64,000 nt of DNA, taken from assembly GCA_024741835.1 (NCBI GenBank), contig JAENRP010000263.1:1-64000 (forward strand), read 5' to 3'. This DNA is from Diplocarpon mali (lineage: Eukaryota; Ascomycota; Leotiomycetes; Helotiales; Drepanopezizaceae). The number at the start of each line of letters is the position of its first letter. Position 1 is the stretch's first letter. Under the pieces are notes generated by a model. That model had not been told where the DNA came from. It ran no database searches and saw only the letters and a program-made list of their open reading frames with translations. A program made the position numbers and the translations under genes. Positions 357-64,000 of the stretch are shown here, piece after piece.

Positions 357-379
357 ACTCCTAAGCCAGGCTTGCAATT

Positions 380-3300
380 GGAAAACGGCAAAACCTCAAA
401 TTGCTATTACTAGTCCTTTCCAGCTGCTAATAATAAAGTATCGACTGACGATAGGCTACTAAAGCTATTAGAAGCCGAAAGCCTATTAAGGTATTAGCTA
501 ATATATAAAAGATTCGCGCATCTAAGGCTAGAGAAATTGAAGGGCCTATATAAGGTCTTAACCCTAAAACGGAAGATCTAAGTACTAAAGGATCGTCTAA
601 TGTACCGAATTTGCAAGCTAATAAAACTTCGAAATCGGACGCAAACTAAGCTTAATCTATAGAAAGATTTAATACTAGTGCTAATATCTATTAATACTAC
701 TAGATTATTTATAACCTTAATTAAAGGAAATAATTGGTTTTCTTAAATAGTAGATAACTTCACTTAGTAGATATAGACCATTTGCGCTAGGACCAAATCT
801 AAGCTTATAAAAAAGCTGGAAACTTGGAAAGTGATAAAGGAACGCTAGACCTAATTAAAGCTAATAGCTATTAGGTCTAATAATGCATTAGAGATTAGGG
901 TAAAGCTTAATAAATAGGCAAAATAAGGAGTTTATTACAAACTAACTATAATATACAAAGGTTCCTATTAGAATAGTATCGCTAAGTAAAGCATTTAGCA
1001 AGCAAAGACTGACTATCGCGCTCTATTATAAGATACTGACCTACTATTGGAATTCTAGGACCTTATAGTTAAGGCAGACGTATACCTGCGAAATAGAATA
1101 GGTAGTAGACTAATAGTTAATAGCACTTAAATATCGCTATATAAGGCATATTTCAAATAGAAATTAAGCCTAGACTATATCTATATCTTTAAAAGCGTCT
1201 ACTACTCCTATATTAGCCTAAAGTCCTAGCCTGCAGGTATAAAGAGTAAGAAGCTAATAGACTGAGGTAAAGAGTATATATTTATTAAGTATATTAAATA
1301 GATAATAAAGCAATAGATAGTATATACGCTAGATCTAAGGCGAGTAATCATATCCTTAGTAGTTGAGTTCGACGAATCTTGAAATAGGAAGGAGCTATTC
1401 TTAAAGCTCTATATACCTAGAGATTCGTAAGGTATACTATTCGATAGTAATACTATTAAGCCGAACTAATAACCCCTTTCTCTTAACTAAGGTATATTAA
1501 GCGCACCTGCTAATCGACGACCTGCTAGTCGCTTAAAGGCCGAATAGACTATTCCTATCGTCTGCAAACTGCCTAAAGTATAAAACAACTTCGATATTAT
1601 TATCCCTTTAGTTAAAGCACCTATGTCGTGCAGAATGGGCGGAGTCTCTACTTATTCTGGAGACCCTCTACGTGACTCTGCTTAGTTATAGACTCTCCCT
1701 TTTCTTTCCGAAGTCTCCTTACCATATATATATTAAATAATAATATAATCAATTATCTTCTCCTATATCTGCGAGCCTCTTAAGCGACCTAATGAAGGCC
1801 CTCCAGCCGACCGCACCACAACCTATAGTAAAGGATATTCCTAAAATAGGTATAAGTAATAATAAGCCTCTACTATCGGAAAGCGGTTCCTTAAACAATA
1901 AGCCTATAGAACCTATAGTTAAACCTACGCCTTTGAAAAGGAATAGATACTTAGAATTAGAAGATACCTTAAATAAACGCAAGTCTAAGCGTATCTAGGC
2001 TATAATAGCATATAGGATCTATAAGCTTGAACTTCAATAGAGCTTTAATAAAGATAATGCGTTCCTAGCCGCTAAGAGGATAATGAAAATCTCTTTTCTA
2101 AAGACGTATAATAAAGCTATTAATAACTTAAAGAATAGAGCAATATAGAATAAGGCAATCTAAGAGGAGATAAGCTCTTTTATTACAAATGGCATATAGA
2201 TAGAGGAACTAATACTAAAGGATATAAACCTAGTATTAATAAAGTGGGTCTTTATAATTAAGATATATGTAAATAAGACCTTAAAACGTTATAAAGCAAG
2301 GCTTATAGCTAAGGGCTTCTTCTAATAGTATAGAAAAGACTACTTTAATACGTTTGCGCTAATAGTTCGCATAGATACCCTTTATATATTTATAGTAATA
2401 GTAGCTGCTAAGGACCTTAAATGCAAATAGTATAATATTAAAAATGCATTTACCAAAGCGACTATAAAGAAATGGATTTTTCTCTCCCGACCTAACAGTA
2501 TTCCTATACGCGCTAGCCACTCTTTCTATATACTCTACAATATCTATAGGCTTAAGTAATCAGCCTATAATTAGAACCTTTTATATAGCTCTACTTTAGT
2601 AAAAATGGGATTTATTTAAAGCCTAGCTAACCCTTATCTATTTACCTATATTAAGCGTAGAATTAAGTTGCTACTATATATTGATAATATTGCTATAGTT
2701 GCGGAAACAACCACTTAATTAGATTGGTTCTTTATAATTATTTGGAAACGTTTTAATACTAAGGATCTAAGGGGAATTTATAAGATCCTTAGCATCTGTA
2801 TTATAAGGAACCGCTTTACTTAAGAACTTTAGTTAAATTAAGAGCAGTATATTAAAAAGATCCTAGACCGAATAGGACTCTTTACTTATGCTCCTAACTT
2901 TAAGCTAAAGCGTACTCCAATCGAAGGAAAGTATAATAAGTTAAAGCCTACTAATAAAAATGAATAAAGAAGAGATCTAAAGAAGTACTAATAGGATATT
3001 AAAGCGATTATATATACTATAGTATATATAAGACCAGATATCGCCTTTATTATTAGGCAACTTAATTAGAACTTAAAGGATCTAACGATTCAATATAAGA
3101 ACGCAATTAAGCGACTTAAAAGGTACCTTCGATTAATAATCATATAGAAGGTAAGATATAAACTAACGAAATATATAAGCGCAAAGCTTAAGGTATATAC
3201 TAATTCCAACTAGGCAAATATAAAAGGTCGGAAAAGTATATTTAAAAGCGTAGTAGTACTATATAGCAGACCTATATTATAGGAAAGTAGGAAGTAGAAA

Positions 3301-5737: not shown

Positions 5738-6207
5738 ACTCTTAAGCCAGACTTATAAGTAGATTCCTTTAAGGAAAGTGCACTCTTTACCCTAATATAA
5801 TTAAGCAAGGATAAGGAGAATAGATAGACTCTTAAGTTAGGATCGCAAGTGAAATTTGCAAAAATAACTCTTAAGCTAGGACTATAAGTAGATTGTAAAG
5901 TATTTTTAAAGATAACTCTTAAGCTAGGATTATAAGTAAATTTAATAGGAATGACTCTTAGGCTAAGACTGCAAGTGGATTCTATAGATTTACTAATAAT
6001 AACTCTTAAGCTAGGATCGCAAGTGAAATTCGCGGAAATGACTCTTAAGCTAAGACTGCGAGTGAACTTTGCAGATTTATTAAAAACGACTCTTAAGCTA
6101 GGACTATAAGTAGATCTTGCTATTTCTAAAAAATCGACTCTTAAGCTAAGACCGCAAGTAGATCTCGCGGCTTTATTAAAAATGACTCTTAAGCCAGGCT
6201 TATAACT
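5738..6207 (+). repeat. PAL array, 10 copies, in the Cop1-B polyprotein frame
   Basis: Copies start at 5738, 5828, 5867, 5915, 5954, 6002, 6041, 6089, 6137 and 6185, each 23 bp. Spacings are 90, 39, 48, 39, 48, 39, 48, 48 and 48, all multiples of three, and the first copy is in frame with the gag start at 4211. Each unit reads roughly T-L-K-L-G-L-x-V, a decayed T-P-R-P-G-L-R-V. The region separates protease from integrase. The reverse strand also reads through because the unit is palindromic, so the minus-strand frame at 5704-6219 is a mirror, not a gene. Confidence 0.93.
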
Positions 6208-8837: not shown

Positions 8838-9268
8838 ACTCTTAGGCCGGACCTATAAGTAGATTCCTTTAAGGAAAGTGCACTCTTTGCCTTAATACAA
8901 TTAAGCGAGGATAAAGAGAATAGATAGACTCTTAAGCTAGGATCGCAAGTGAAATTCGCAAAAATAACTCTTAAGCTAAGACTATAGGTAGATTATAAAG
9001 TATCTTTAAAGGTAACTCTTAAGCTAGGATTATAAGTGAATTTAATAAAAATAACTCTTAAGCTAAGACTATAAGTAGATTTTGCAGATTTGCTAATAAT
9101 AACTCTTAAGTTAGGATCGCAAGTGAAATTCGCGAATTTGTTAAAAACGACTCTTAAGCTAGGACTATAAGTAGATCTTGCTATTTCTAGGAAATCGACT
9201 TTTAAGCTAGGATTGCAAGTAGATCTTGCGGTTTTATTAAAAATGACTCTTAAGCTAGGCTTATAACT
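8838..9268 (+). repeat. PAL array, 9 copies, in Cop1-C
   Basis: Copies start at 8838, 8928, 8967, 9015, 9054, 9102, 9150, 9198 and 9246. Spacings are 90, 39, 48, 39, 48, 48, 48 and 48. Compared with Cop1-B the unit that starts at 6041 there is missing, a clean 39-bp difference that keeps the frame. Confidence 0.93.
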
Positions 9269-11540: not shown

Positions 11541-12990
11541 ATGTCGACACTTAAAAACATCAATTTTAAACCTCCTGCCGACCCTTTGCCCGAATCTTTT
11601 CAAGCTCGCCCTAGTCACTCTAAGATTGACTCGGATTCTGAAAACTCTTTAGAATACCTTAGGCCCTATATTCGACCTGGCTCCTCCCCTCCTACTAAAA
11701 CGAATAAAGCGATAATAGCCGCTTTTAAAGCTATTATTAATCATTTTCCCCTCCTTAGTTCCTTTAGCGCTCCTTATTTCACTAGAGCTAATATTACTAA
11801 TTTCCTTAAATAATATAAGAAGACTTATTATAATTTTAGTATTAGATATAATAAGATGATCAATCGACTTCCCTACTACTGCGACCAAACTAGTAAAGAT
11901 ATTATCAAATCTTTGCTTAAGTAAAAGCTTCGCAAGTCTTAAGAACTACTTATCAAGGCTCTTAAAGCTGAATTTCAGGAATTTAATAGATAGCAGATTT
12001 GCAATACTTTAGCCTTTCTAAAGGAGTTTATTCTTATTACTCGCACTCTTAAGGAACTTAAAAACTACTATCGGACCTTCACTTAAGTATTAAATACCTT
12101 AATCGATTAAAAGATTCTTAGTAAAGTTGAAAGAGGACGCCTATTCTTACTTAGATTGCTTACTAGCCTTTGAAATAAGATTATCAAGCATTTTAGAATT
12201 AATAAGCGTAATCCTATAATATACGCTTAATTCGAAGACTTCTCGACCTTCGCCTTAAAAGCAGACCTTAGCAAAAGGACTATTAAGGCAATAGAAAAGG
12301 AGAAAGAGCCTACCTCCTCCTTTACTAAAGATCTTAAAAGCCTAGTGCAAGAACATTCGAAGGCTTTAGAGATTACTAAAGAGGTAAAGAGAAATCCAAT
12401 AGTGATTCCCTTTACTTGCGGTCCTAACTTAGGAGTGAAATCTGCCTTAAAAATCAAGGAACTCGAAGCCTAGTTTTCTAAACTCTGCATTTAACATTTA
12501 GAAACCTCAATCGAAGGCCTTCTTTAAGAAACTTATCGCGCCTCTTAGTTTAGTAATCAATAGGCTTTAAAAGGCAAAAACTAGCACGCGAACTCTAAAT
12601 ACCCAAATCCAGCTTCCCTTAAGTTGAATAAGCGAGTTGCTACCTCGGAAAGGCTCGATAATTGTATATAGCTGTATTAAAGAAATTCCTAAATTATTAG
12701 TCTAATTTTATATAAATCTTGGATTTTCTTTAGCGAGGACGCCTCTTAAATTAGTTAGGGCATAGGATTACTTGAAATTGTTATCGAATTTTCTTTAAAA
12801 TTGCGATTTAATAGCTTTGATAACTTCGAGCTTTTAACTCGCGGTCCCGGACTAGGAGTCGCATTACCAAAGGAGGAAAAGGAGTTTTTATTATTTTTAT
12901 TCGTTTATTACCGCACCTCCCTCCTTCCCCTTTCCCCTTTCCCTTTATATATTTCTTTGAAATCCACTCGCGGGCCCGACCCGCGAGTTA
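11541..12990 (+). pseudogene. GyX-E gag, the best preserved gag of its family
   Basis: ATG at 11541 (MSTLKN) opens a frame that stays in phase to the gap at 12990, about 480 codons, with about twenty TAA/TAG codons and one TGA. The first 90 codons have no stop. The middle part is Lys/Leu-rich and helical, as in capsid-type Gag. Two PAL units are in frame, giving TCGPNLGV (12414) and TRGPGLGV (12837); a third lies at 12966. The Cys-rich knuckle seen in GyX-P is missing here. The longer ATG at 11283 lies inside the leader and is not supported by the sister copies. Confidence 0.75.
12414..12988 (+). repeat. Three PAL copies in GyX-E
   Basis: Positions 12414-12436, 12837-12859 and 12966-12988. 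The first sits at gag codon 292 and has counterparts at codon 312 in GyX-P and GyX-M. The third is nearly undecayed and lies two bases from the assembly gap. Confidence 0.88.
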
Positions 12991-14702: not shown

Positions 14703-15002
14703 ATTGCAAAGTTCAAAGCATTTAAAGATATATTAAGGTTATAAAAGATAGTAAGGGCTTAATAGGCTTAAGGACGACTCCTAGGCCTGCCTTGCAAGTC
14801 AAGTCATATAATCTTATAAAGGAACGCTTTTAGGAAATTTGACTCCTAGTCCTACCCTGCGAGTAGGGTTAGTGATTTCAATAGAGGTTGCTATTAATTG
14901 ATTGTTTTTAATTTAAAGAGATACTTAAAAGTTAGATTAGCGCAAAAGGATAGTTGTTATTTTCCTAACTGCAGGTCAATCGAAGTAAGGTCTAAATAAG
15001 GG
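14703..15002 (+). other. Cop1-C 3' tail with two PAL copies
   Basis: The region between pol and the 3' LTR holds PAL at 14777-14799 and 14842-14864 (65 bp apart). Cop1-A and Cop1-B have three copies in the same place. No gene is visible beyond the last pol codons. Confidence 0.8.
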
Positions 15003-37600: not shown

Positions 37601-39000
37601 AAAGAGGATTAGGGCTACCTAAGGGGAACTCGAAGCTTTGATAAATCCTTTGTATAGGTTCTCGAGAATATAGCTCTTAACCTTTAAAAGCTATTTATTA
37701 GTAAGGCGGCAGAAGGGTTCGATTGTCAAGTTATTCTCGCTTATTAGCTCGATTTTATAATCTACCCTTAGCTTAGGTTCTGGCAGTTGGTTAAAGGCCT
37801 GGCGACTGAAGACGTTTTTAAACTTAGCGTACTAAGGCAGGAACTTCTAATTTATTAGCTTATCGTTGCTCTTATACTTGGCTTGCAGCGCCGAACTAAG
37901 GCCAAGGGAGCTAATTTCAGCTTGCCTAACTGATTCTCGGCGATTGATTTCTTAGTCTAGATTATAAATAGAGCTTACAAATATAAACTCTTTAAGCGCT
38001 AATTCTTAAGTTTATATAGCTCGTCTTACCTTAGTTGTAAAGTAGTAGTAGAGGGCGCCGATTGCTAAGACTGAGATTAGGCTGATCTAGTAAGCCGGCT
38101 TTAAAGTAGCGTTCCTCTTTACTAAAAGAGGGAGCAAGGGGTCTAGTACTTTTAGTAAGGCCTTCTTTATACAATTCAGATCTCTTTTCAAGTCTTTAAA
38201 GAAACTGCTATCCCTAGGTCTATAAGAGGCCATAGGAGTAGGAATCGAATTAGTAGGTTTCACTTATAGGCCGGGACTAGGAGTGGAATTCGAGTTCGCA
38301 GATTTCACTTGCAGGCCAGGACCGGGAGTGGAATTCGAGGCGTTAGTGCTTGCTAGCACTAAGAGCTAGGCTTAGGCCATTCTAAGGTCTTTGTCCTTAG
38401 CGTCTATTATAGCTGCTTGATAATCGACGTCTTATTAGGCTATTAGGGGTTTTATTAGCTATAAGAGATCGATTAATATATATCAATTAAAGTAAAGGAT
38501 AATAGGCATATCCTTAAGCTAAAAGATACTATTTTTTCCCCTTTTATAAGACTATTTAAAGTTATAATACTCTAGGAACTTCCTACTAATTAAAACGTCG
38601 GTTGCTCCTAAGCTTATAATTAAGAAAGGGAAGTTTATTTATCGCCTATCGATTATAAGGGTAAGTAAGATAGCGAATCGAATAGTTTCTCCCTTAAGGC
38701 TATTATAGCTAATAGGGGTAATCGATTTAAGCAGTTTAATAAACTTCACCCTAAGTCTTTAAAAGAGCTAGTATGCTAAAGACGTCTTAATAATATTAAA
38801 AATATTAGCTCTACTATTAATATAAGTAACTATTTTAATAAATGATCTATTTCAAGCTAGTTCTATAGGAATTAAGAACTGGCGGCTGCCTATTAATAGG
38901 CGAGAATCAAAATCTAAGTCTTTTTATAAATTGTAACTTATGCTATAGTAAGAGTCTTTACTATAGCTTAGCAGTTTCCTAATAGTAGGTCGTTTTCCAT
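34643..39000 (-). pseudogene. GyY-1 pol: protease, RT, RNase H, integrase
   Basis: Same domain order as GyY-2, read backwards. The RT box at 37262-37273 reads YLNN, so both catalytic Asp codons (GAC) have become Asn (AAT). FRxRTYKYKVL lies just before it and LGFVI just after. Integrase lies at about 35000-35900. PAL pairs at 36300/36345 (integrase-RNase H linker) and 38262/38307 (protease-RT linker) are in frame. Stops are TAA/TAG. Confidence 0.88.
36300..38329 (-). repeat. Two PAL pairs in GyY-1 pol
   Basis: 36300-36322 with 36345-36367, and 38262-38284 with 38307-38329. Both pairs are 45 bp apart. GyY-2 has one copy at the first site and three at the second. Confidence 0.9.
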
Positions 39001-40269
39001 CTTAACTTCAGCTACTATAAACTCGCCTTGCTTCTTTAGCTTTAGGCAATCTGTTGTATAATAACTAAGGGCTCTGCAGTTATAGTAAAGATTAGATAAC
39101 GGCTTTGAGCTAGCAGACCTTTCTTAAGGAGTCGCTAGCAAAGGGGAATGAGTGCAAGGAGCTAGGGAGGTAGCTATAGCGGTAGGTCTTTATAACTCCC
39201 TTTTTAGTATGCTAGGGACGCGGTCTTTTGAAGGAGAGAATGCGATAGTAGAAGCGACTCATCAAGCGTTATAGGCCTCTTTTTACTTAATATTATAAGC
39301 CTCGCGGTCCGCAATAGCTAAGAACTCATCTAAAGTAGTATAATTATTATTCATTTTATACTTCTTTACTCGAAGGTCGTTCTTTAAAGCTAAGGAGACC
39401 TTTTTATAAATATTATTAAACTAGTAAGACTGATCGATCTTTTTAGCTATAATAAGGGTAATGAACTTAGATCAGAACTTATTATATAATAATAAACCTA
39501 TAATTAGCCTGCTATATTTAAGCTTAGCAGATTAAATATAGTTATAGTTAAAGAACCTTTAATCTAAGACCCTAAGGATATTAGTAGCGTATATAAATTT
39601 ACTAGTAAAGATAGGATCTATATATTATAAGATTAGGTTTTAAGCTTTACCTATTATATACTTAAAGTAAGTAGTAATCTAGTCCTCTTTTAAAGTAAAG
39701 TTGCCTAAGTACTCTTAAATAAATACCTTTATAGCTATCTTCTAAGTGTTATAGGTGATTTCGCCTTAGTAGTTGCTAAAATAGGTTTAAGGGTACTTAA
39801 TTCGATAGGAGTCGATAGCTAAGACTAAAGGTCTGATAATTAAGAGGTAGTAGTCTAAGGGAGGTAGCAAGTCGGCGGTAAGGGACCAAGTGTTCTAAAG
39901 GCTAGTACTTAAGGAAGAAGGGGCAATAGTATTATTTTAAAGAGCAGCGGCTATAGTAGCGCTAATAAGGTTTGCGATTTTAGCCTGCTAAGTAGCTAAG
40001 AAGAGAGGGGCCGATATAGTAAAGGTAGACGTCAGTTCTTCTTTAACTTCAATTGATAGAAGGGGAGTATTTCAAGAATCTACTTGCAGTTTAAGCCTAA
40101 GAGTAAAATCGGTACTAAAGGAGGTTTCTTCTTAAGTGGGCTTAAGAGGGGGAATATCTCTAGGACCAAGGTTGGCAGTAAGGCCTATAGAACTAGTAGT
40201 AGTAAGGCCCAGTGGTAAAGGTGCGGTTAACCTTTCACTTTTCCTAAGTGGCATAAGATTAGAAGTCAT
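39001..40269 (-). pseudogene. GyY-1 gag
   Basis: ATG at 40269 (MTSNLM). Capsid-type helical region, then a CCHC zinc knuckle near 39050-39070. PAL at 40082-40104 is in phase, 55 codons after the start. Stops are TAA/TAG. Confidence 0.82.
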
Positions 40270-41513: not shown

Positions 41514-44088
41514 AAAAGGCTATAAAACCACTAGTCCTATAAGAATTGTCTAAAAGCATTTTAAAAAGGTATCCCTATTTTATAATTACTATAATTAGAT
41601 TACTATCATTAGTAATAGGTCGCAAGATCTCCTTTCGCTTCAATTTTATAATCATTTAAGCTAATTGAGATTTTAAACCGAGTGCTTAAGAAGTCTATCG
41701 ACTTATCTTCTTTATAAATAGAATAAGTTTCACATTCAACTAAGAGCCGATCTACCTATTAAGGCTTCCTAAAGCGGGTCCTTATCCAATTAATAGGATT
41801 TAATAATCTAAGACTTACTTTCTAATAAAATTGACTCGCAGGCCAGGACTATAAGTGAAAATCGGAATTTCTTTATTAGCAGCACTTATATCTCTCTTTA
41901 TTAAAACGACTTAATTATAAAGACTAAGGCCAATCAATTAAAGAGGTTTAAGGTAGGCTATAAGCTAATAGGCTCCTCTACTTTTCGCTATTATAGCTAA
42001 GAGGTAGAGTCTATAATATATCCGAAGGACTTATTAAGTAAGACTGAATATCATATTATAAAGAAAATAAAAAGGTATAAAGGTTGCGTTATCTATAAGA
42101 TAGAAGTAATAAAGGTATATCTCTACTTCTTATCTTATAATAAAGAGGAATATACTTATAAAAGCACTATTATTAATAGTAAAATTGTTAGTTAAGAAGC
42201 GGCATCCAAAGGGTTTAAGCATCACAATTGACCCTTTTTCCTCTATTTCCCTTTGCTATTTATTACTTAATAATATCAAAAAGAAAGAATTGTTCCATTT
42301 AATCGGCTCTAACGCCTTTAAGGCTTTAAGATCAGCCCTAAATTTTATAATACCTAAAGATGCTTCTATTATCAATAGGTTGGATTTGCATATCCTTAAA
42401 GAGATAAAGAACTAATTATTAAAGTAGATTAGAAAAAGATTAATATCTTCTATTATATAAAGAAGTTTAAAGTATTTAATAGTTTTATTAATATCAAATC
42501 CTTTATAATTAAGATTATAGTAAACCGAAAGAGAGCAAATATAAAGGTCGCAAAGTCTTCTCCCTTCGATTCTTACGCTAAGAAGATACTATCGAAAGCG
42601 AGTTTTTATTACAAAAGACACTTAAATATTATATCATTCTCTAAGCTTAAGGTTAAGAATAACCGATTAAGGCATATTGCTATAATTACAAATATCCTAA
42701 TTAATAGATTCCTCTTTGCATTCTCTTTCTCGTAAGATAAAATAGTCTCGCTTAACATCCGAGAGATTAGGTTCTTAACTTCTATAATTATTAAAGAATT
42801 AAATAATATCTATAAGGGCAAACTTATTTAAGATAAGCTATTAAATCTATTTAACAGCTCTCTTAATCGTCTTTAAAGCAATAGGAATAAGGTCTTCCCT
42901 TATATTATCGTTTCTAAAATAGTTATATATAAATATAAAGAAGTTAAGAACTAGCTCCTTTAAGTTATTAAAAAAGGAGTTTAAGCAAGCGCGCAATCCT
43001 TTAATTTTAAATTGCAAATTAGCTAAGGTAGCTATTAAATAATCTATCCTTTTTAAAGGTTAAGCTAAAATAGGTCGTTTAGCTAAAGGAGAGTCCTTTA
43101 AAGATTTTGAAAATTCTAAAGAGGCTGCGCTAAGCGTTTAAGCAATTTATTTAGCAGCAGTTTCTAAAATCATTTTAGCAAGAGGCAAGTTAAGTCCAGT
43201 TCTAAAATTCTCATTTCTAACTCTTAATCTAAGACCGCGAGATAAATTATATAATTCAGCACTTATTATATCTTTAAATTAAGAAGCGAATTTTAAAGTA
43301 AGCTTAATTACAAATAACTAATTCCCTTCTTTATTATTAAAGAAATCTCGCTTAAACCCTATTATAGGAATCTAGTTCTCTCTTAAAATAAGTAAACTAT
43401 AAGCAAAAGCGTAAAGCCCTAGTATATTAATAATAGTACTATTAGGTAGGGTAATATCTGCAGCTCAATTTGATCTTTTTATAGCCCTATTAGCTACTAT
43501 AAGTACTACATTAGATAGGCCTATAAATCTGCGACTGCGAATTCGATTGCCTTAGAATTTTACTACTCCTTTTTAAATAATAAAGAAATTGAAAATCTAA
43601 ATAGCTCTAGTAATAAGAGTGTTTTCCTTAAGAATTTTTAATAATACTCGTCTTCTATTATTAGAATTAATATTTATTAAAAAGCGCAAACGAAATAGGA
43701 GTCCTCTCTTATTAATAGCTAAATTATCCAATCGTCAAATAGATTCTTCTCTTTTATCTTAGTCCATTTTAAAAGTATCGGCCAAAGTTATATATTAATC
43801 TGCATTAGCTAAGAATTCCTTTTTAAAGATTCCCTTTAATCTTAATTCTTCAATTAGGAAGTCGTTAAATTAAAGAATTCCAGAGGCCACTTAGGTTAAA
43901 AGGTTATTAATAGCATTTGCGTAAGCTAAAAGGAGTTTTTATTATTCTATATCTCCTAAGGCTACGTAGGTCGATTTGAAGTTCTTTAATAATGCAATAG
44001 CTCTACTATCTTAAGAGAAGTTTATAACTAGTATTTGTTTATCCCTTATTGTAGTAGATAAAACCATTTATAAGTTCTTTAAAGGCAT

Positions 44089-44440: not shown

Positions 44441-47400
44441 ATAACTTAAGGTCGCAATTAATTAGGTATTTTAATATTCTTTACTCGCAGGACCAGCTTA
44501 TAAGTTAAGTTAGAAAAATCTTAATCTTTATCCAAGGGTTCAAAATTGCTTATATCGCTATCGGTTCTTATAAAAGATTCGGAAGTTATATCAATTTCTA
44601 ATTCATCTTCTAAAGGGAATAAGGTCTAATCGCATTAATAAAAGCGCTTTAGTCGATTAGCTGCGAATGTTCCTTTAATATCGACTCTATTAAGTTCCTA
44701 AAGAGAATAGTATCCCTTTTCTTTCTACTTAGATTTAACCTTAAATAGACTAAGCTATCGATAGTCAAGTTTAATATCTACTAATATATTAATACTTCTT
44801 GCAATATCGTAAACTAAGATAAGATTATCTTTTCGAATAGAGTGCGTTTTAAGTACTTTAGAAGCAGCCTATACTTCCTTAGCTTTTTCTTAATATCATT
44901 TCTTTTATAAAATAATTTCCTTTATATTTATATCTTAGAGCTTAAGTTGTCAGTATCTTATTATAAGCAAATCAGAACAGTTCTGAATTTGACTATAGTC
45001 GAACAATCTTTAAATAGGCTATTAGGATTTAAAAAGGAGCTATACCTCTTTACTATAGATAAGGAAAAATAGTATAACTCTAATTGGTTTATAGATTATC
45101 GTTTAATAAGCGAAGAGTATTTTATAAAAGTGTTTTATCTAATTCTTAAATCCTTTATAAGTAACTTTAAATAGCCTATTAAGAATATCGCAATATCCTT
45201 ACTCTACTATTCTATTAGCTTTCGAGTTATATATTAAGATTTAAACCTGCTTAATGCTATATTTTCGCAAAAAAGCTTTAACTACTCCTTTATTTTCAAG
45301 GCCTCTATTAATAGTTAGTCTACTAAAAAGTCTATAGCAATAGACTATATCTTCCTAAAGGAACTTTACAATAGATTTAAAGTTAGCAGATCTTAAAGGT
45401 TATCCTTTAAGCCATCCTAATAGGTCTTCCTTTATTAAAACAAAATATATAATCCCATTTTCGATTATTAGTACTTATATAATATTAAGACTGACTTTAT
45501 AGAAAAGGCCTAATAGCTAGATTAGGAATAAGGGATTCTCTTTATAACTAGGTTTTCATTTCTAATAAGAGACGCAACTTTTTATAAAGGCTTTACAGTC
45601 CTTAAAAGAACCCTTCTAAAAGAATTTCCTTAAGAGTCGGTAGTAGGTAGACTTAGCTCCTTAGTAGCCAGTTTCCTTATAAATATCTTAAATAGCCTTA
45701 GCCCTTAGTTTTTCATTATTTAAGTAGAATTGTATAAGGAATAAGTTATCGCTCCTTTTAAATAATCGTCTTCCTTATATTAAATAAATCAAAGCTTTAG
45801 CTTTGAATTTCTAAAAATCCTTAAGAGCAACCGTCTTTAATCGTCTAAGCGTAATTAAAAACTTCGCAATTTCTTTAAAGTTACTTAAGTAGTTAAGTAA
45901 TAAAATTCTCTTATTTAACTCGCGGGCTAGGACCGCAAGTCGAGTCCCTTTAAAGCAATATATCGATAGATAACCAACTTCGTTCTCTACCTACTTATCA
46001 ATATCTATTTCATCTTCTTTAATCAAATTAAAGGGGTAAGGACAAGTTCTTCTTAAAAGGCTATCGGCGGCGGTATTTTTCATTCTTAGAATATATTTAA
46101 CTTTAAAGTCTATTAATCTTATTTAAGCAATCCATTTTATTAGCAAGGCTCTTAATAAGTCGCTTATAGCTCTATTCAATTATTCTACTAGCACTTTAGC
46201 ATTAGTTTTAAAAATGAAGTAAGTACTATAGAGGTCGCTTCTTATCTTTTTTATCGCCTTTAGAGCGCCTTTACATTCCTATTTAATAGTATTATACTTT
46301 ATCTCTACTAGATTCTAAAGACCACTTTTAAAGCAAGCTAAATGTCTTTTCTATTAGCTATTAGCTTATTAAAGGATAGCACCTTATCCAATTAAGCTTA
46401 TATCAACTATTAGTATAATTAGCCTAGCGTCAGCTCTATAGTCTATTTTAATTAGATATAGCACTTTAAGCAACGCTTGCTTCAGTTGTTTTATAGCCTC
46501 TATTTAAGGTTCCTCCTACTAAAACTCAGCCCCTTTCCGAAATAAGGTATAAATAGGTGCTGCCTTTTTAATAAAATCCTTGATTTAAATGCAATAGTAT
46601 ACTATAATGCTAATAAACGCGCGAGCTTCCGCCATATTATTATACCTCTTCTATTTGTCGATTTTAAGTACTTTAGCCCTTTAAGGACTTCGGCTATTAG
46701 AATCAGTAATAAAACTAATAATTTCTATCGATAGAAGATAGTATCATAACTTCGGACCAACTGTTGCTCCTACCCTTTCGAATCGTATAAGCACCTAGTC
46801 TAAGTTCTAAATGTGTTCTATTATAAATCGTTATATACTAAGGAGAACTTCTTTATAGTTATAGAATGATCTTGATCCTTTTACTCCTATATCATCTATA
46901 TAAGGCAGCGCAATATTAGGTATACAATCTACTAGTATCTTGTAAATTACTTAAACAAATTGAGCGATCGAATTTATAATCCCTTAAGGTAATTTTATTA
47001 TCTAAAGTAGCCTAAGAGGGGTCTGAATTACTATTATATCTCTTGATTTAATATTAAAAATAAATTGGTCGTATCTAAAGAAGAAGTTAATAAGAGAGCT
47101 ATAGGTTAATCTTGCGAATTTATTCAAGAACTTATCCACATTCGGAGGAACATTGGCGTCCCTAACAGTTACTCGGTTCATCTCCTCTTTCTTTCGCCAT
47201 AACTCCTTGCTAGGTGCCTTCCTTCACTAGCATTAAGCCTAGCCCTTATACTAGCTAATCGTTTCCCAAAACCTCGTTTTAGAATTCGGCTATATCTCCT
47301 GCGATAACTATTTATCCTTCTAAGGATCGATCTATATTTTAAAGACTAGCTTTTATAAGCCTATCTCTAGGATAGTTAAATGTTAGCTGAGATTCTAAAA

Positions 47401-47990: not shown

Positions 47991-50078
47991 CTAGCGTATT
48001 TATCGATAAATTTCTCCTATTTTAATATCTGTCTCTTTCGCTTAAAGTCAAAGGTCTACGCAATAACTTCGACTTCTTAATCTTTAAGCTTAAAGCTATC
48101 TTCGTCTATTATATCTCTAATTAATTTATCTACTATATCGGCTTCATCCTTATCTATTATAGTTTTAGATTATTAAGTATCTTTTAGCATTTAGACTCTA
48201 TATTAAGATTCCTAAGTTATACGCATTGATTTCTAAACTTTGGCTGGTTTTATTAGTATTAAAGGAGTAGTAGATCTAGAAGGACGTTAAATATTCTAAG
48301 GGTTTCTAAATATAAAAGTAGTATTAATATTAATAGATACGTTATTATTAACCTACCTTAAAATAGAGATACCTCTGACTTTAGTAGCAGTCTAGTTCGA
48401 AGTTTAATTAATAAGCACTCCTTTAAGTAGATTGCTAGCTAGACCTATATATATATAAGTTAGGACCTTAGAGTTTATTTCAATAATGCGCTTTCGTTCG
48501 GCTAAATCCTTATCCTACTTTATACCGCATATTATTATTCGAATAGTCTATAGCTATAAACGATTCTAGTGTTTTTTAGTAAGGATAGCGTCTAGCTTAG
48601 GATCTTTAATATAAAGCATCTTATACTTATTAATATATATAACCCTAATATTAATAAAATAAAGGAAAAGAGGGCAATTGTTGCAATACTTATATAAAGT
48701 ACAGTTGGGTTCTTTATTATTGCAAAAGTTGCAAGTTAGTTGTCTTCTATTACCGTTTCCTTAGTACCTTATAGTATTAATATTAGCAAAGTACTAGTTA
48801 GGATTAATTCCTTCTTCTTTAGCTAGCTATTGCGTTCTTATATTAGCTGGTTATTCCGAATAACAAAAAGCAGGAGTCTAGTAATAGGAATTACTATATT
48901 AGCTTATAGTAGCTGAGTTTTACCTATTACTAAATTAGGGAATATACTACTTTTCTTATAAGAGATTATTAATCTTAATCTTTAAGCTCTAGATTCGGAG
49001 TTCTATAAATTAGGTCTTAAGTTCCTTAATTCTAAGGTTAGATCTTACTCCTAGGTTAGGCTTGCGAGTAAAAGGTATAACCACTAGGTTCTTCTTTACC
49101 TCCTCTATAACTTCCAAAGCTTTCGAGTATTCTTAGACCAGGCTCTTAAAGTCTTTAGTATAAGAAGGAATAAGGGCTTTTTCCTACTCTATAGTATTAA
49201 TAGTTCTCTTACTAAGATCTGATTTTAAGGCAAAGGCCGAGAATTCCTTAAATAAGGCAAAGGTTATAAGGTCTTGCTTATTAATCTTAAAATACTTAAT
49301 AATCTTATTTCAAAGGCTAATAAGTAATCCGAGCAAGAAAAGGCAGCCTCTTTCAACTTCGCTAAGTATTTTCTAGCTAATTAAGGTATTTAATATATAA
49401 GTAAAAGTCCAATAGTAGTTCTTAAGTTCCTTAAGAGTATAAGTGATTAGAACAAATTCCTTTAAGAAAGCCAGGGTATTGCGAATCTATTATCTATCAA
49501 ATTTGCAGAATTCAGACTTAAGAGCCTTAATAAGGAGTTCTTATAAACTATGCATTTTCCATTTAAAGAGGGATTTAATAATATCTTTACTTATATAGTT
49601 ATAATAGTAAGGAAGTCTAGAAATCATATCCTCTTATATAATACTAAAATCGTAATAAGTTTCCTTATATTGCTTAAGGAAATCAGTAATATTAGCGCCT
49701 ATAAAGTAAGGAGCGCTAGGGGAATTAGGGAGAGGAAAGTGATTAATAATAGCCTTAAATGCGGCTATTATCGTTTTATACTAACTATCCAAGTTGATAG
49801 AATCTATAAGAGGCAAAGGAGAAGCTTTAATATTATAAGATTAATTATTAAAAGGAGTACTTCGAAATTCAAAAAGGCTTAAAGAACGTTTAAAATCCGA
49901 GTCAATCTTAAAGTGACTAAGACGAGTTTAAAAAGATTCAGATAAAGGGTTAGTAAAAAGTTCAAAATTATTATTATTTTTAATATTTTCTAATATTAAT
50001 ATTGAAAAAGTAGGTAGCAGTCTTAAGTTATTTAAGGATATCTTTTTATCCTCTTACTTATAGGCTAAGCCTAAGAGT
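44483..50078 (-). repeat. Four PAL copies in GyX-M gag-pol and leader
   Basis: 44483-44505 and 45918-45940 in pol, 49047-49069 in gag (codon 312), 50056-50078 in the leader just before gag. The last two have exact counterparts in GyX-P at 61332 and 60323. Confidence 0.88.
47991..50002 (-). pseudogene. GyX-M gag
   Basis: Start at ATA 50002, aligned with ATG 11541 of GyX-E. PAL unit at codon 312 as in GyX-P. A Cys-rich knuckle (CNFCNNKEPNC, then CNNC) lies at about 48735-48660. The unbroken plus-strand frame at 49550-49882 is antisense to this gag and not a gene. The gag/pol boundary is approximate. Confidence 0.78.
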
Positions 50079-53472: not shown

Positions 53473-54900
53473 ATGACCTTTAATCTTATACCATTTAAGA
53501 GAAGCGAAAGGTTAACCGCACCTCTACCACCAGGCCTTACTGCTACCAGTTCTACGGGCCTTACTGCTACTAGTACTACCAGTTCTACAGGCCTTACTGC
53601 CGACCTCAGTCCTAGAGATATTCCCTTTCCTAAGCCTACTTAAGAAGAAACCTCCCTTAATACTAATTTTACTCTTAGGCCTAGATTATAAGTAGATTCT
53701 TAAAATACTCCCTTTTTATCAATTAAAGTTAAGGAAGAACTAACGTCTACCTTTACTATATCGGCCCCTCTCTTCTTAGCTACTTAGCAGGCCGAAATTG
53801 CGAACCTTATTAGCGCTACTATAGCCGCCGCTTTTTAAAATAATACTACCGCCCCTTCTTCCTTAAGTGCTAGCCCTTAGAACACTTAGTCCTTTACTGC
53901 CGATTTGCTACTTCCCTTAGACTATTACCTTTTAATTATCCGACCTTTAGTCTTAGCTATCGACCCCTATTAGATCAAGTACCTTTAAACCTATTTTAGC
54001 AACTATTAAGGCGAAATCACTTATAACACTTGGAAGATAGCTATAAAGGTATTTATTTAAAAGTACTTAAGCAACTTCACTTTAAGAGAGGATTAGATTA
54101 TTGCCTACTTTAAGTATATAATAGGTAAAGCTTAAAACTTAATCCTATAATATATAGATCCTATCTTTATTAATAAGTTTATATACGCTATTAATATCCT
54201 TAAGGTCTTAGATCAAAGGTTCTTTAATTATAATTATATTTAATCTGCTAAGTTTAAATATAGTAGGCTAATTATAGGTTTATTATTATATAATAAGTTC
54301 CGATCTAAGTTTATTACCCTTGCTATAGCTAAAAAGATCAATTAATCTCGCTAGTTTAATAACATTTATAAAAAGGTCTTCTTAGCCTTAAAGAACGACC
54401 TTTAGGTAAAGAAGTATAAAATAAATAATAATTATACTACTTTAGATGAGTTCTTAACTATTGCAAACCGCAAGGCTTATAATATTAAGTAAGAAGAGGC
54501 CTATAACGCTTAATAAGTCGCCTTTGCCATCGCGTTCTCCCCTTTAAAGGACCGCGTCCTTAGTATATTAAAAAGGGAGTTATAAAGACCTATTGCTATA
54601 GCCACCTCCTTAGCTCCTTGCACTTATTCCCCTTTGCCAGCAACTTATTAAAAAAGGTCTGCCAGCTTAAAACCGTCGCCTAGTCTCTGCTATAATTATA
54701 GAGCCTTTAGTCACTATACGACGGATTGCCTAAAGCTAAAGAAGCAAGGCGAGTTTATAATAGCTAAAGTTGAGATAAAAAACGACCTACTATTAGGAAA
54801 TTGCTAAGCTATAGTAAAGACTCCTACTATAGTATAGGTTATAATTTATAAAGAGACTTAGATTTTGATTCCTACCTATTAATAGGCGGCCGCCAGTTCT
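53473..54900 (+). pseudogene. GyY-2 gag
   Basis: ATG at 53473 (MTFNLIPFKRSERL). A Thr/Ser/Gly-rich repeat (GLTATSSTGL) precedes PAL at 53671-53693, in frame (TLRPRL-V). The capsid-like helical part runs to about 54600. Zinc knuckle at about 54686-54730 reads C-Y-N-Y-R-A-F-S-H-Y-T-T-D-C, CCHC with one Cys changed to Tyr. Stops are TAA/TAG. Confidence 0.85.
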
Positions 54901-57900
54901 TAATTCTTATAGAACTAGCTTAAAATAGATCATTTATTAAAATAGTTACCTATATTAATAGTAGAGCTAATATTTTCAATATTATTAAGATATCTTTAGT
55001 ATATTAGCTCTTTTAAAGACTTAGGGTAAAGTTTATTAAACTGCTTAAACTAATTACTCCTATTAGCTATAATAGCCTTAAGGGAGAAACCATTTAATTT
55101 ACTATCTTACTTACCCTTATAATCGATAAGCGATAAATCAATTTCCCTTTTCTAATTATAAGCTTAAGAGCAACCGACGTTTTAATCGGTAGGAAGTTCC
55201 TAGAGTACTATAACCTTAAACAGTCTTATAGAAAGGGGAAAAATAGTATCTCTTAGCCTAAGGATATGCCTATTATCTCTTACTTTAATTAACGCGTACT
55301 AATCGATCTCTTATAGCTAATAAGACCCCTAATAGCCTAGTAAGATATCAATTATAAAGCAGCTATAATAGATGCTAAGGATAAAGACCTAAGAATGGCC
55401 TAAGCCTAGCTCTTAGTACTAGTAAGTAATAACTTGAATTCTACTCCTAGTCCTAGCCTGCAAGTGAAATCTGCGAACTCGAATCCTACTCTTAGTCCCG
55501 GCCTGCAAGTGAAAACTGCAAACTTGAATTCCACTCCTAGTCCTAGCTTGCGAGTGGCCTTTTATAGACTTAAGGATAGCAGTTTCTTTAAAGACTTAAA
55601 AAGAGATCTGAACTATATAAAGAAGGCCTTACTAAGAGTACTAGACCCCTTGCTCCCTCTCTTAGTAAAGAGAAACGCTCCTTTAGAAATAGCTTACTAA
55701 ATTAGCCTAATCTCAGCCTTAGCAATCGGCGCCCTCTACTACCACTTTATAATTAAGGCAAGGCGAGCTATATAAAGTTAAGAACCGGCGCTTAAAGAGT
55801 TTATATTTATAAGCTTAATTTATAATCTAAACTAAGAGATTAATCGCTAAGAATTAGCTAGGCAAGCTGAAATTAGCTCCCTTAGCCTTAGTTCGGCGCT
55901 ATAAGCTAAGTATAAGAGCAATAATAAGCTAATAGATTAAAAGCTCTTGCCTTAGTATACTAAGTTTAAAAACGTCTTTAATTACTAGGCCTTTAATCAA
56001 CTGCCGGAACCTAAGCTAAGGGTAGATTATAAAATCGAGCTAATAGGCGAGAACAACTTAATAATTGAACCCCTCTACCGCCTTACTAATAAATAGCTCT
56101 TAAAGGTTAAGAGCTATATTCTTAAGAACTTATATAAAGGATTTATCAAAGCTTCGAATTCCCCTTAGGCAGCCCTAATCCTCTTTATTAGGAAAGCTAA
56201 TAGCTCTTTACATTTATATATTAATTATTAGAAACTAAACGCCCTAATAAAGAAAGACCCCTACCTGATTCCACTTATCAATAAGATAATAGTACGCATA
56301 TCGAAAGCTTATATCTTTATAAAAATCGATATATAATAAGCCTTCTACTATATTTGCATATTAGCTGACGCTAAGGACCTAACTACCTTCCGCACGCATT
56401 ATAGGACTTATAAATATAAGGTCTTGCTATTTAAGCTGATAAATAGGCCTGCTACCTTTTAAAGGTTTATTAACGATATTCTCCTTAACTACTTTAACGA
56501 TTTTTACTTTACCTACTTAAATAATATTCTAATTTACTTGAAAAACTCCCTTAACTATAAGATTTATATTAAGAAGATCTTAGGAATTCTCTAATACTAT
56601 AGCCTTTAAGCAGATATTAAGAAAAGCGAGTTCAGGGTTACTAAAACTAGGTTCCTAGGGTTTATTATCAGAGTTTATAGAATTAAGGTAAACCCTAATA
56701 AGGTCTTAATTATTTAAGAGTGGAAATACGCTAAGAACATATATAGTATATAAAGCTTCTTAAGTTTCTATAACTTTTACTAAAGGTTTATTAAAGGCTA
56801 TAGTCGTATCTGCCAACCTTTAATAGCTCTTATAGGAAACATTCCTTTTAACTTTAATAACACTTATAAGGAAGCTTAGGAAGCTCTGCGCTTAAGCCTT
56901 TAAACGACCCCGATCTTATGCTACTATTATCCTTAGAAGCAGATAAGGCTTAAAACCGACGCCTCCGATAGAGTAATCGCTAGCGTACTCTCCTAACTCT
57001 AAGAAGATAAGAACTACTACCTAATCGGGTACTTCTTAAAGACTATAAATAATGCTAAGCTGAATTACCCTATTTATAATAAGGAGCTCTTAGCGATTTT
57101 TAGATTATTCTACTAGTATAAGGCAGAGCTACTTAGGGCTTAGAAAATAGTATACATATATATAGATTATAAAGCCCTTAAGTACTTTATAACAACTAAG
57201 GACTTAATAGCTTAGTAGGCTCGCTAGGCAGAGTTCTTTACTAATTTCAACTTCCTTATTATATACCGAATAGGTATAACGAATACGCTGGCTAATACAC
57301 TCTTACGTTAAGACTAGGAGCTAACCTCTCTTAAGGCTAGGAAACGAGCTTTACGCCATTAGCAGCTCTTACCTAACGATAAGCTCTCTATAGAAGTACT
57401 TGCCACTAGAGGCAATTCCACTCCTAGGCCCGGCCTACGAGTGACGATTGTGCCTATCTTACCAATAGAGGCACCTGCCGACCCGACATCTAGGGTCGAG
57501 TACGATATAGCAAACTACTACGTTATCGATAAGGTCATTTAAGCTAATAAGACCTCCCTTAAGCTATAGAAGTTCTAAGACAAGGCGCAGAGCCATAGCT
57601 TCGACTACGAACTCAGCTAAGGCAAACTCTTTTTCCAAGGTAGACTTATTATACTATCTTAACCTCTTAAACTGCAAATAGCCCTAATTCGTTATATATA
57701 TAAGTAACCTTGCGTCATATATGCTAAAATCGGGAAAATAAGACTTCTAATAGGAAGAAAATACTATTAGAAAAGCCTTAATAGCGATATTAGTACTTAT
57801 ATCTAGAACTATTATTATTCGAGAATGAAAGCTTATTATAATAAGACCCTTGGTTTTTTATAACCCTTGCTAATTCCCAAACGAGCTTACTAACACTTGA

Positions 57901-59050: not shown

Positions 59051-59099
59051 ACCTATAGATACAATTGCATAGGCGTAGTTTTTCAAAGGGGGGAGGTAG

Positions 59100-59348: not shown

Positions 59349-59353
59349 ACTAG

Positions 59354-59648: not shown

Positions 59649-60398
59649 TTAGTGACCTATATAAGGACCGATTTCTTAAGATTTCCATCCTTATATAACC
59701 TTATTAATCTCTTAGTTTATAGATAAAAGACCGGCCTTTTGAAAAATATATCTTTAAAACACTTATAGCATTTTAATCAATTTTAAAAACCTTATTCTTA
59801 ATCGCCTAGTTACTTAGAAGTATCGATTTTATTTAATAACTATTAATAACCTTAGATTTTCCCTTTTCAGCTTTGCTTCGAAAACCCCTATTTTCTTCCT
59901 TAACTTTGAGATTTTCGGAATTTTCAGCTTCCTAGTATAAAAAGTTTGGCGAACCTTATAATAGTAATCTCAAATAGTAGTAGTTTTAAGTACTTAAGTA
60001 ATACTAAGCGTAAACTTTAACTAAAGGTATCTCCTTAGAGTCCTTAGAAATCTGAATCTGATAATTCAGCTGCCTTAGCTTGATAGAACTCTAAAGATTG
60101 CCTTAGAATCGTCTTTAAAGACCCCTTTATTCTAAGGACTAATAGGAATTGGCCTAAAGGTTAAGAAGAATCTTAGATATAAACCTTATCTTAGAAATTA
60201 GCCTTAGATTAGGTAAACCTTATCTTATTACAATTAGTTATAATACTCTTATTAGCTATTTAGTATTTAATTAGAATCTTTTAATAAATTCAGATTAAAC
60301 TTTTAATAGAATCCGGAATTCTACTCTTAGGCCTAGCCTATAAGTAAGATGATAAAAAGATATCTTTAAATAACTTAAGACTACTACTTACTTTTTTA
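59649..60398 (+). other. GyX-P leader
   Basis: About 750 bp without a gene, matching 50003-50754 of GyX-M in reverse. Contains PAL at 60323-60345, shared with GyX-M (50056). Confidence 0.7.
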
Positions 60399-62640
60399 AT
60401 ATTAACGCTTAAAAATATTAAAAATAATAATAATTTTAAACTTTTCACTAACCCTTTATTTAAATCTTTTTAAACTTGTCTTAGTCACTTTGAGATTGAC
60501 TCGGATTTTAAATGTTCTTTAAGCCCTTTTGAATTTCGAAGTACTCCTTTTAATAATTAATCTTATAATATCAAAGCTTCCCCTTTACCTCTTATAGATT
60601 CTATTAACTCAGATAGTTAGTATAAAATAATAATAGCCGCATTTAAGGCTATTACTAGTCACTTTCCCTTCCTTAGTTCCTTTAGCGCTCTTTACTTTAT
60701 AAGCGCTAATATTACTAATTTCCTTAAGTAATATAAGGAAACTTATTACGATTTTAGTATTATATAAAAGGATATAATTTCTCGACTTCCTTACTACTAT
60801 AATTATATAAGTAAAGATATTATTAAGTCCCTCCTTAAATAGAAAACTTTTAATTTATAAGAACTCTTTATCAAGGCCCTTAAATTTAAATTTTATAAAT
60901 TTAATAGATAGCAGATTCGCAATACCCTAGCTTTCTTAAAGGAATTTGTTTTAATTACTTATACTCCTAAGGAACTTAAGAACTACTATTAGACTTTTAC
61001 TTATATATTAAACACCTTAATCAGCTAGAAAATACTTAGCGAAGTTGAAAGAGGCCGCCTTTTCTTACTTAGATTACCTACTGGCCTTTAAAATAAGATT
61101 ATTAAGCATTTTAAGATTAATAAGCAAGACCCTATAACCTTCGCCTTATTTAAGGAATTCTCAGCCTTTGCTTTAAAATCAGATCTTAATAAGAGAACTA
61201 TTAATATTATAAAGTAGGAAAAAGCCCCTACTCCCTCTTATACTCAAGACCTTAAGAGCCTAGTCTAAGAATACTCGAAAGCTCTAGAAGTTATAAAGGA
61301 GGCAAAGAAGAACCTAGTAGTTATACCTTTTACTCGCGGGCCCGACTTAAGAGTAAGATCTAACCTTAGAATTAAGGAACTTAAGACTTAATTTATAAAA
61401 CTCTAAATCTAAAGCTTAGAAACTAGAATTAATAATCTTTTATAAGAAAAATAGCATATTCCCTAGTTTAGTAATAGATAAAACTCAGCCCTTATAAGCC
61501 AACTTAATAGTTCTTATTACTAGACTTCTACTTCTTATTATTTGGAATAATTAGCTAATATAAGAATGTAATAGCTGGCTAAAGAAGGAGGAATTGATCC
61601 TAACTAGTACTTTGCTAATATTAATACTATAAGGTATTAAAGAAATAGTAATAGAAGATAATTAACCTGCAACTTTTGCAATAATAAAGAACTTAACTGC
61701 GCTTTATATAAGTACTATAACAATTGCCCTCTTTTCCTTTATTTTATTAATACTAGGGTTATATATATTAATAAGTATAGGATGCTTTGCATTAGAGATC
61801 CTAGGCTAGACGCTATCCTTATTAAAAAATACTAAAATCGTTTATAGCTATAGACTATTCAAATAATAATATATAGTATAAAGTAAGATAAGGATTTGGC
61901 CGAATAGAAGTGCATTATCGAAATCAACTCTAAGGTCCTAACTTATATATATATAGGTCTAGCTAGCAATCTACCTAAAGGAGTGCTTATTAACTAAACT
62001 TCGAACCAGACTGCTACTAAAGTTAGAGGTATCTTTATTTTAAAGTAGGTTAATAATAATATATCTGCTAATATTAATACTACTTTTATATTTAGAAACC
62101 TTTAAAATACTTAGCGTCCTTTTAGATCTATTACTCTCTTAATACTAATAAAACCAGCCAAAGTCCAGAAATTAATATGTGCAACTTAAGAATCTTAATA
62201 TAGAGTCTAAATGCTAAAAGATACTTAATAATTTAAAACTATAGTAGATAAGGATAAAGCTAATATAGCAAACGAATTGATTAGAGATATAATAGATAAA
62301 GATGGCTTTAAGCTTAAAGATTAAGAAGTCGAAGTTATTGCGCAAACCCTTAATCTTAAGCGAAAGAGATAGATATTAAAATAGGAGAAATTCGTTAATA
62401 AATACGCTAGTTCAACTGCAATAAAGAAAGCTATAGAGAATATTATAGCCTAGCAAATTAACCTTACGTTTAAAGACCTATTTGGTTTGATTAGACGCTT
62501 TAATAAAGTGCTAAGAAAGTATATCCCAATTGCCTTTAAAGATTTGAATAATAATAAGGAAATGGAAATTGTAATATAAAAGAACTTTAAGAAGCACCTA
62601 GCCTTAATCAAATGTCTTTAAATTGTAAAAGATAAAGGAA
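60399..62640 (+). pseudogene. GyX-P gag
   Basis: Start at ATA 60399 (decayed ATG, aligned to 11541). KEFVLITYTPKELKNYY and VERGRLFLLRLP match GyX-E. PAL at 61332-61354 is in phase at codon 312 (TRGPDLRV). A Cys-rich knuckle CNFCNNKELNC...NNC lies at about 61668-61730. The C-terminal part has DLFGLIRRFNKVL. Stops are TAA/TAG. Confidence 0.82.
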
Positions 62641-64000
62641 CCCAAAGGTATTATAATATTATAGCAATAGCTTTAATATCTTAAAATATTAATTGAAATT
62701 GTTTAGCAATTGCAATAAAGAGCCCTATTATTATTTATTCTATAAAAGAATTAGTTAAAGCAAAGGCTCTAATCAATTATAGTTCAAAAGTTAATGCAAT
62801 AATTAAAAAAGTAGTAGAAATAGCTCGATTAACAATTATTAGCGATTAACTTCTTATTTATTCGACTATCTCTAAATCGAAATACAATTTTAATAGATAA
62901 GTGAAAAACGTAAAGGTTAAAGTCAAAGGAATTATTAATTATACTAACTTTCTAATAATAGAGAATTCTTTAAATAACATTCTTTTAAGAATGCCTTTTA
63001 TTTTAAAATCTTAGCTAATATTTAACTATCTTAAAGATAGTCTTATAAAAGCTAGTCTTTAGAATACGGATCGATCCTTAAAAGGATAAATAGTTATCGC
63101 AAGAGATATAGCCGAATTCTAAAACGAGGTTTTAGAAAACAATTAGCTAGTATAAGGGCTAGGCTTAATGCTAGTAAAGGAAGGCACTTAATAAGGAGTT
63201 ATAGCAAAAGAAAAGTAAGTTTGCCGATTTTGAATAATAACGATTTAACTTGTAGTCTTAGACTAAGAGTCAAATCTGGAATTTTGAAAAATAGTATAAT
63301 CGGCGTTTTATTAGAATAATAATTAAGAAAAAAGAAATATAAGGTAAAGAAGAGGGTTCGTTTTATAAATTTCGATAATTTACTAATTATTTTAAAAAAC
63401 CTAAAAACCACTTATAGGCCGGACCTGCGAGTGAAAAATAATAAAATTACTAATGATATTTCTATTTACGCACTTTAAATTAATAATTTAGAAAATCTTT
63501 TATTTGTTTTTAAAAAGGAAAATTCGGACCGTTTTATAAGATTTAATAAAAAAGGAAAGAAGTAGAGAAGTATAGTACTAGCTAATATTCGAACTATATA
63601 TAAAAGCAAGGCCGATAAAGTACAACCGGTAGATTAGGGAATCTCTAATAGCTCGAAGCTTAAAGGATTAGATGATTAGTTTAAATAAGACGAGAAGCTT
63701 CGACCTTTAAAGTTAGGTAGCAAACTCGATAAGTATATTATAAGTAGATTTTCTAATAAACCTATCGGATATTAGCTAATAAAAGAACGTTTTCATATAC
63801 TAAAAATTAAAGAAGACTTAATAGAGTAAGAACGCAAACTACTTTATAAAACCTTAATAAATCGAAAGGACGCCTTAGCTTTTGATTAGACGGAACTTAG
63901 CTAAATTTAAAAAGAGGTTACGCCTTATATTAAGATTAAGATAATACCTTACGAAGCCTAGTAAGAGAAAACATTTAAGGTCCTTAAAGCTCTTTAAGAA
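62641..64000 (+). pseudogene. GyX-P protease and start of RT
   Basis: Protease at about 62760-63090: an SSKVNAI active-site region where gypsy elements have DSGAEVN, then SLNNILLRMPFIL. A 0.7-kb linker with PAL at 63248-63270 and 63410-63432 follows. At 63690-64000 the N-terminal RT region appears (KLDKYIISRFSN, NRKDALAFD, EVTPYIKIK). The minus-strand frame 63199-63411 is antisense and partly due to the palindromes. Confidence 0.82.

Follow-up and report, generated by a model that had tools for sequence, protein, structure and literature searches.

A tiny GC-rich near-palindrome (23–27 bases) in copia and gypsy retrotransposons of Diplocarpon mali, a candidate for a copied DNA unit

The window analyzed here is a 64-kb stretch (32% GC) of the fungus Diplocarpon mali: positions 1 to 64,000 of contig JAENRP010000263.1, assembly GCA_024741835.1. 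It carries many copies of a GC-rich near-palindrome, noticed earlier in a reading made without database searches (the sequence-only reading). The repeat is confirmed as real and abundant; its sequence is corrected below, and its range is wider than first reported. The same DNA unit is found in long terminal repeat (LTR) retrotransposons of at least four families (two copia and two gypsy). It occupies about 19 or more separate positions, which comprise linkers of the polyprotein, coding stretches of other kinds and a single 3' untranslated region, in a copia element. Its copies are biased in reading frame and mostly decayed, and some elements of the same genome do not carry it. Most likely, it is a tiny palindrome, spread by copying, that tolerates being translated. 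A self-spreading or selfish DNA unit of 23–27 bases, copied into the LTR retrotransposons of one fungal lineage, is given a probability of about 0.55.

A weight matrix built from 107 sites, all outside the window, gave 68 matches in the window at a threshold of 10 bits, 67 of them reaching at least 16.9 bits. The remaining match (position 57299, 11.9 bits) is probably due to chance. The 67 copies counted by the sequence-only reading were all recovered, against 0.3 matches per window at 10 bits in ten first-order Markov sequences, and the split given for them also holds: 10 + 9 + 10 + 1 copies in contexts of the copia family Cop1, 8 in Cop1 tails and 29 elsewhere. Pairs of ACT and AGT at a spacing of 17 bases occur 86 times in the window versus about 27 times at neighboring spacings, and the arm rule described below, imposed on both sides, leaves 55 window sites versus 0.04 in simulations. 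A chance origin is excluded by this spacing excess and by both sets of simulations. Throughout the assembly (49.37 Mb, 676 contigs), the strict pattern matches 2,891 times and its reversed control 0 times. A prokaryotic or viral source was rejected as well: the undecayed pattern (form with G at arm base 9) has no exact match in genome_contigs and viral_contigs.

When undecayed, the unit has the consensus YN-ACTCGCGGGCC-N-GGCCCGGGAGT-NR. Undecayed copies outside the window read ACTC(G/C)CGG(G/T)CC-N-GG(C/A)CCG(C/G)GAGT, and the 27-base form is YN-ACTCSCGGKCC-N-GGMCCGSGAGT-NR. The exact 23-mer first proposed is absent from the window, where three occurrences are found with up to three mismatches. 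No C-to-T decay is seen at 58 sites, and 260 match a form tolerating some decay. The unit had been proposed as a palindrome, but perfect symmetry is not the rule: two arm types, A and B, differ at a single base (arm base 5), and among 160 sites, 137 combine the two types, 22 are A/A and 1 is B/B, so that most copies are oriented. Arm bases 5 (G/C) and 9 (G/T) are found in all four combinations (100, 83, 104 and 37 arms).

A wider TTTCACT...AGTGAAA symmetry had also been described. This is a mere tendency, the firm part being a pyrimidine at position -2 (158/162 sites) and a purine at +24 (159/162), with -1 and +23 free; the corresponding control values, for other ACT-17-AGT pairs, are 42/107 and 43/107. 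This preference beyond the 23-mer indicates a unit of about 27 bases. Outside the motif, purine/pyrimidine agreement among 28 contexts (30 listed, some of them related, minus two with N) is complete at the second base, 0.70–0.75 at the third and about background by approximately the seventh.

The window is strongly decayed by repeat-induced point mutation (RIP), with TpA/ApT at 1.51 and (CpA+TpG)/(ApC+GpT) at 0.56, whereas 3 kb of GC-rich DNA from elsewhere in this genome gave 0.45 and 1.25; the window's open reading frame (ORF) listing holds no stop-free frame of 250 codons. CpA is the dinucleotide most hit: in four aligned copia ends, polymorphic columns amount to 71/92 for CpA, 21/43 for CpG, 22/105 for CpT and 10/56 for CpC. 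The undecayed 23-base core is free of CpA unless the center base creates one, and the remaining variation among copies is mostly C-to-T/G-to-A decay. The unit had been described as stop-free; this fails for decayed copies, whose TATAAGT endings give an in-frame TAA on one strand. Motif sites are located within LTR elements that RIP has decayed, and the contigs concerned, of up to 560 kb, also contain GC-rich, gene-like DNA. In 264 kb (the window plus 20 loci, L016–L035, mostly picked for holding sites and thus biased towards them), their density is 1.37/kb in bins below 30% GC and 0.14/kb in bins of at least 42%.

Where the unit is translated, one frame predominates. In stop-free stretches of 80 or more codons (about eight contexts), 81 of 83 motif readings are in frame 0, which also has the fewest stops, on either strand, in 13/19 contexts. 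Coding copies mostly read TPGPGPRV or TRGPGPGV whichever their orientation, and both orientations relative to the coding strand are present. This frame bias is what a peptide repeat would produce, acting as a linker or polyprotein cleavage site with the DNA palindrome as a by-product, and the sites at the protease-reverse transcriptase (RT) and RNase H-integrase linkers of the gypsy family GyX and at the copia integrase-RT linker suit it as well. Such a peptide origin is nevertheless improbable, being already strained by frozen synonymous bases and untranslated copies. Among 988 pattern sites or 1,976 arms, the third codon position at base 2 has changed 7 times, base 0 (a non-synonymous change) 3 times, and A/C replaces G/T at base 8 in 4 cases. 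The synonymous base is hence as invariant as the non-synonymous one, which fits a spreading DNA unit better than a protein domain. Together with the untranslated copies, these frozen bases argue for a copied DNA unit, as the sequence-only reading had held.

The untranslated context belongs to a second copia family, Cop4, met outside the window, in the 3' untranslated region of which four copies were read. In this region at L038 (266-415), imperfect repeats typified by CACCTC-ATTA-GGGTGATTTTTTTT adjoin the motif; the motif is undecayed there, and the neighboring coding part has several stops.

Two further candidate observations were set aside. An RNA hairpin under selection is unsupported, since the arms show no overall covariation: shuffling the arms reaches the observed pairing in 165/1000 trials for 138 oriented sites and in 222/1000 for 22 A/A sites. 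Arm pair 7-15 is above expectation (93 vs. 75.1) and pair 8-14 below it (54 vs. 64.7), and the folding of five single copies gave z-scores of -1.67, -3.11, -0.89, -0.48 and -2.32. The motif has fewer columns with transversions than its flanks (8/323 vs. 216/2,679, including the badly aligned context GyY_2 and the out-of-register row L019_1428), but this comparison is not used as evidence, as 8 of the 17 positions counted are already set by the site rule.

The carriers were delimited by hand into 19 contexts carrying the unit; the flanks of the first 161 sites form 15 clusters, one of which (79 sites) merges several contexts. Among the 50 undecayed sites listed out of 58, at least 26 are within 6 kb of an RT or copia-end match, and since the other 24 are unplaced relative to elements, host genes may carry the unit too. 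The copies are not confined to homologous positions of one ancestral protein, as their places in copia and gypsy are non-homologous. In 4,001 bp of a gypsy element of the same genome (L036, C74) and 4,000 bp of a copia element (L037, C129), both comparatively little decayed, there is no site of at least 10 bits. Two foreign copia proteins, one of which bears the name Podosphaera aphanis, align as far as the linker and do not have the unit, while the match of a third stops short of its position. In the sampled copies, members of a family carry the same sites, so in this sample the unit seems to have been inserted before each family amplified.

These data could be explained if the near-palindrome was copied, in either orientation, into LTR elements of four or more families, at some 19 or more places. 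The resulting T(P/R)GPGP(R/G)V, a Gly-Pro peptide, would presumably be tolerated in linkers, so that the carrier could stay functional and multiply the unit to thousands of copies through retrotransposition. Some sites would then have expanded into tandem arrays, with units of mostly 39–48 bp, and RIP would afterwards have decayed most copies. The copying itself is the least certain step: most likely, it would involve template switching of RT at the hairpin, in particles holding the RNA of several families, or alternatively a gene-conversion-like repair at such sites. In the earlier claim of a mobile unit, the part that stands is the presence of the same DNA unit at non-homologous copia and gypsy places; its spread by copying we infer.

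Several points weigh against this copying scenario. No clean empty site or within-family insertion polymorphism was found among 2,301 site-spanning alignments: gaps in the motif are below 3 in 2,213, between 3 and 14 in 74, and 15 or more in only 14, all of them tandem groups (Cop1 arrays, a Cop1 tail and GyX linkers, including the 45-bp unit). Target-site duplications are not readable either, because the flanks resemble RAWTY, a self-complementary sequence in which direct and inverted repeats are indistinguishable. As linkers are variable, the absence of the unit in relatives could also be due to loss. The four combinations of arm bases 5 and 9, located 4 bp apart, are unexplained by a simple descent from one founder. 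The predominance of one frame suggests some constraint or selection at the peptide level as well, the clear untranslated context is only one, and no enzyme was identified, although no partner transposase was searched for.

The unit could alternatively be a recognition site maintained by selection. The two subunits of a symmetric dimer (putatively a host regulator, a chromatin factor or an element-encoded protein) would each bind one half (YNACTCSCGGKCCN), and elements that gain sites would be favored. Both halves indeed follow the same degenerate rule and vary independently overall in the arm shuffling, with discrete alternatives allowed at arm positions 5 and 9, a free center and free positions -1/+23, and fixed -2/+24. 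This explanation is doubtful, as a reading frame is superfluous for binding and the copies are mostly found in coding stretches or linkers, in one frame and in arrays of up to 10. A tandem-repeat block transferred between families by recombination, with an incidental palindrome, is considerably less probable still. By eye, the spacers of the Cop1 and GyX arrays share AGTGAAATYYGCGRA beside the motif, and 45-bp units are present in three contexts; however, in the 28 compared contexts, similarity tails off within about six positions of the 23 bases. Very unlikely is the old inheritance of the sites from a common ancestor of these LTR elements. Sites at the protease-RT and RNase H-integrase linkers seem to be present in both gypsy families, GyX and GyY (the domain labels of GyY are partly by eye), but an RNase H stretch of GyY matches the C74 gypsy, a relative of GyX, at 26% only, while the motif DNA is the same. 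The non-homologous positions in copia and gypsy and some relatives without the motif also speak against such inheritance.

In the window, Cop1 accounts for the largest arrays. Ten motif copies, mostly 39 or 48 bp apart, lie at 5738..6207 (minus strand), directly downstream of an open stretch (5381-5647, plus) that is protease-like by eye, with no database match, and a second Cop1 copy has nine at 8838..9268 (minus); both arrays were recognized by the arm rule and the weight matrix. The third (27545..28014, plus, ten copies, weight matrix) is enclosed in a 174-codon stop-free stretch (27524-28045, plus), for which none of 510 candidates scored in a protein search. A degenerate copy in Cop1 context is located at 357..379 (23.5 bits with the weight matrix; unoriented). 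The Cop1 tails, all on the minus strand, contain two copies at 14777..14864 (14777, 14842), three at 25908..26056 (25908, 25969, 26034) and three at 26474..26627 (26474, 26540, 26605), found by the weight matrix and, in the first and last case, also by flank clusters.

A GyX element (sites 36300-40082) is apparently nested in a GyY element (31983-50056): the GyY sites 33818..33840 and 41834..41856 flank it and are adjacent in other GyY copies. The protease, RNase H and integrase labels come from matches to the C74 gypsy, from RVT_1/RVT_2 matches or from inspection by eye; Pfam gave no match at the curated cut-off for 20 stop-free pieces, and Rfam none in the window at gathering scores. The nested GyX, coded on the minus strand, has plus-strand motifs at its RNase H-integrase linker (36300..36367, with a decayed tandem copy at 36345), at its protease-RT linker (38262..38329, two copies 45 bp apart) and upstream of the protease region (40082..40104). 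In a second, plus-strand GyX copy, the motifs are on the minus strand: one upstream of the protease region (53671..53693), three in the protease-RT linker at a 45-bp spacing (55443..55555, frame 0 of the open stretch 55410-55697, plus) and one in the RNase H-integrase linker (57420..57442). Three predicted proteins of D. coronariae are 79–85% identical to a GyX piece over 53–60% of the query, and one (P0002) has one recognizable unit where L030 has two. Two of the published assemblies of that species, of about 50–54 Mb, are about 20% copia and 6% Ty3 (PMC11527701, PMC7864672).

GyY site 1 is represented at 50056..50078 (plus; flank clusters, weight matrix) and 60323..60345 (minus; flank clusters), and site 2 at 49047..49069 (minus; both methods) and 61332..61354 (plus; flank clusters). 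Site 3 (63248..63270, plus) is in frame 0 of the open stretch 63056-63316, and site 4 (63410..63432; both methods) is A/A. A copy in the flank cluster of site 2 lies at 12414..12436 (plus, frame 0 of 12231-12470). At one GyY site (window 45918..45940, L022 5317, L027 9481), the left arms differ in all three copies by transversions, and their flanks have none across 140 columns. The open stretch 12759-13058 holds two frame-0 copies, TRGPGLGV at 12837..12859 (plus) and an A/A copy at 12966..12988, adjoined by a short N run from 12991 and then a poly-A run. Degenerate copies are located at 29506..29528 (plus, ACC start; weight matrix), 29931..29953 (minus, TPRPSPQL in the open stretch 29801-30064, minus) and 30753..30775 (plus; weight matrix), and further 23-base sites at 31983..32005, 32169..32191, 43220..43242 (minus), all three by the weight matrix, and 44483..44505. 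An alanine-rich 127-codon stretch, stop-free on both strands (22555-22936), lies in a part of the window that is among its richest in GC.

The systems closest to the motif are Rickettsia palindromic elements and yeast mitochondrial GC clusters. In the Rickettsia elements, compensatory changes keep an RNA-level hairpin, whereas the arms of the fungal motif show no overall covariation. Miniature inverted-repeat transposable elements (MITEs) and repetitive extragenic palindromic (REP)-like elements are small, non-autonomous, multi-copy sequences with inverted repeats, which in MITEs are terminal and go with a target-site duplication and a cognate transposase; like a MITE, the motif has an inverted repeat, but it has no internal region and no readable target-site duplication. 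The Rickettsia elements are described as palindromic units in unrelated coding genes, in frame, to which they add a conserved peptide (PMC10969869). The earlier comparison with them is apt for this logic, an in-frame palindromic unit in unrelated ORFs, in either orientation. However, they measure about 150 bp, form ten families and reside in bacterial cellular genes; the fungal motif is nuclear, 23–27 bp long, with conservation fading about six bases beyond the 23-mer, and was met in retrotransposon-rich DNA only, in a sample where sites are over-represented. Yeast mitochondrial GC clusters, including those of var1, are described as short, GC-rich palindromes in AT-rich DNA, at coding and non-coding positions and in frame in var1, that vary and shuffle (PMC8811140). 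The motif, too, is palindromic and rich in GC, lies in AT-rich DNA and occupies places of both kinds, but the clusters are mitochondrial with AG/TAG target repeats, while its sites are in LTR elements, on contigs of up to 560 kb, with no such repeats readable. The CHS of GalEa, a palindromic hairpin sequence in fungal copia, is 9 bp long and directly follows the 5' LTR, at the place a primer-binding site would take (PMC5445492); the motif differs in sequence and occurs several times per element, in linkers and the 3' region. No such unit in fungal nuclear retrotransposons was found in the titles and abstract openings of the open-access papers searched, and in the accessible parts of three papers on fungi of this group (PMC11527701, PMC7864672, PMC5628827), no word begins with "palindrom".

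It is possible, although the odds are somewhat less than even, that the unit is a mobile, nuclear eukaryotic "protein-coding palindrome" that parasitizes both copia and gypsy, passes from one to the other (perhaps through template switching of RT) and persists by giving a harmless Gly-Pro linker both ways, from a core nearly free of CpA. If mobile, it would be among the smallest mobile sequences proposed, a hyperparasite of retrotransposons, and an example of a sequence readable both ways and poor in the dinucleotide targeted by genome defence. The spread of Rickettsia palindromes and mitochondrial GC clusters would become testable in a nuclear system with RT. If it is instead a binding site, it would mark a factor on which several retrotransposon families depend or which they attract.
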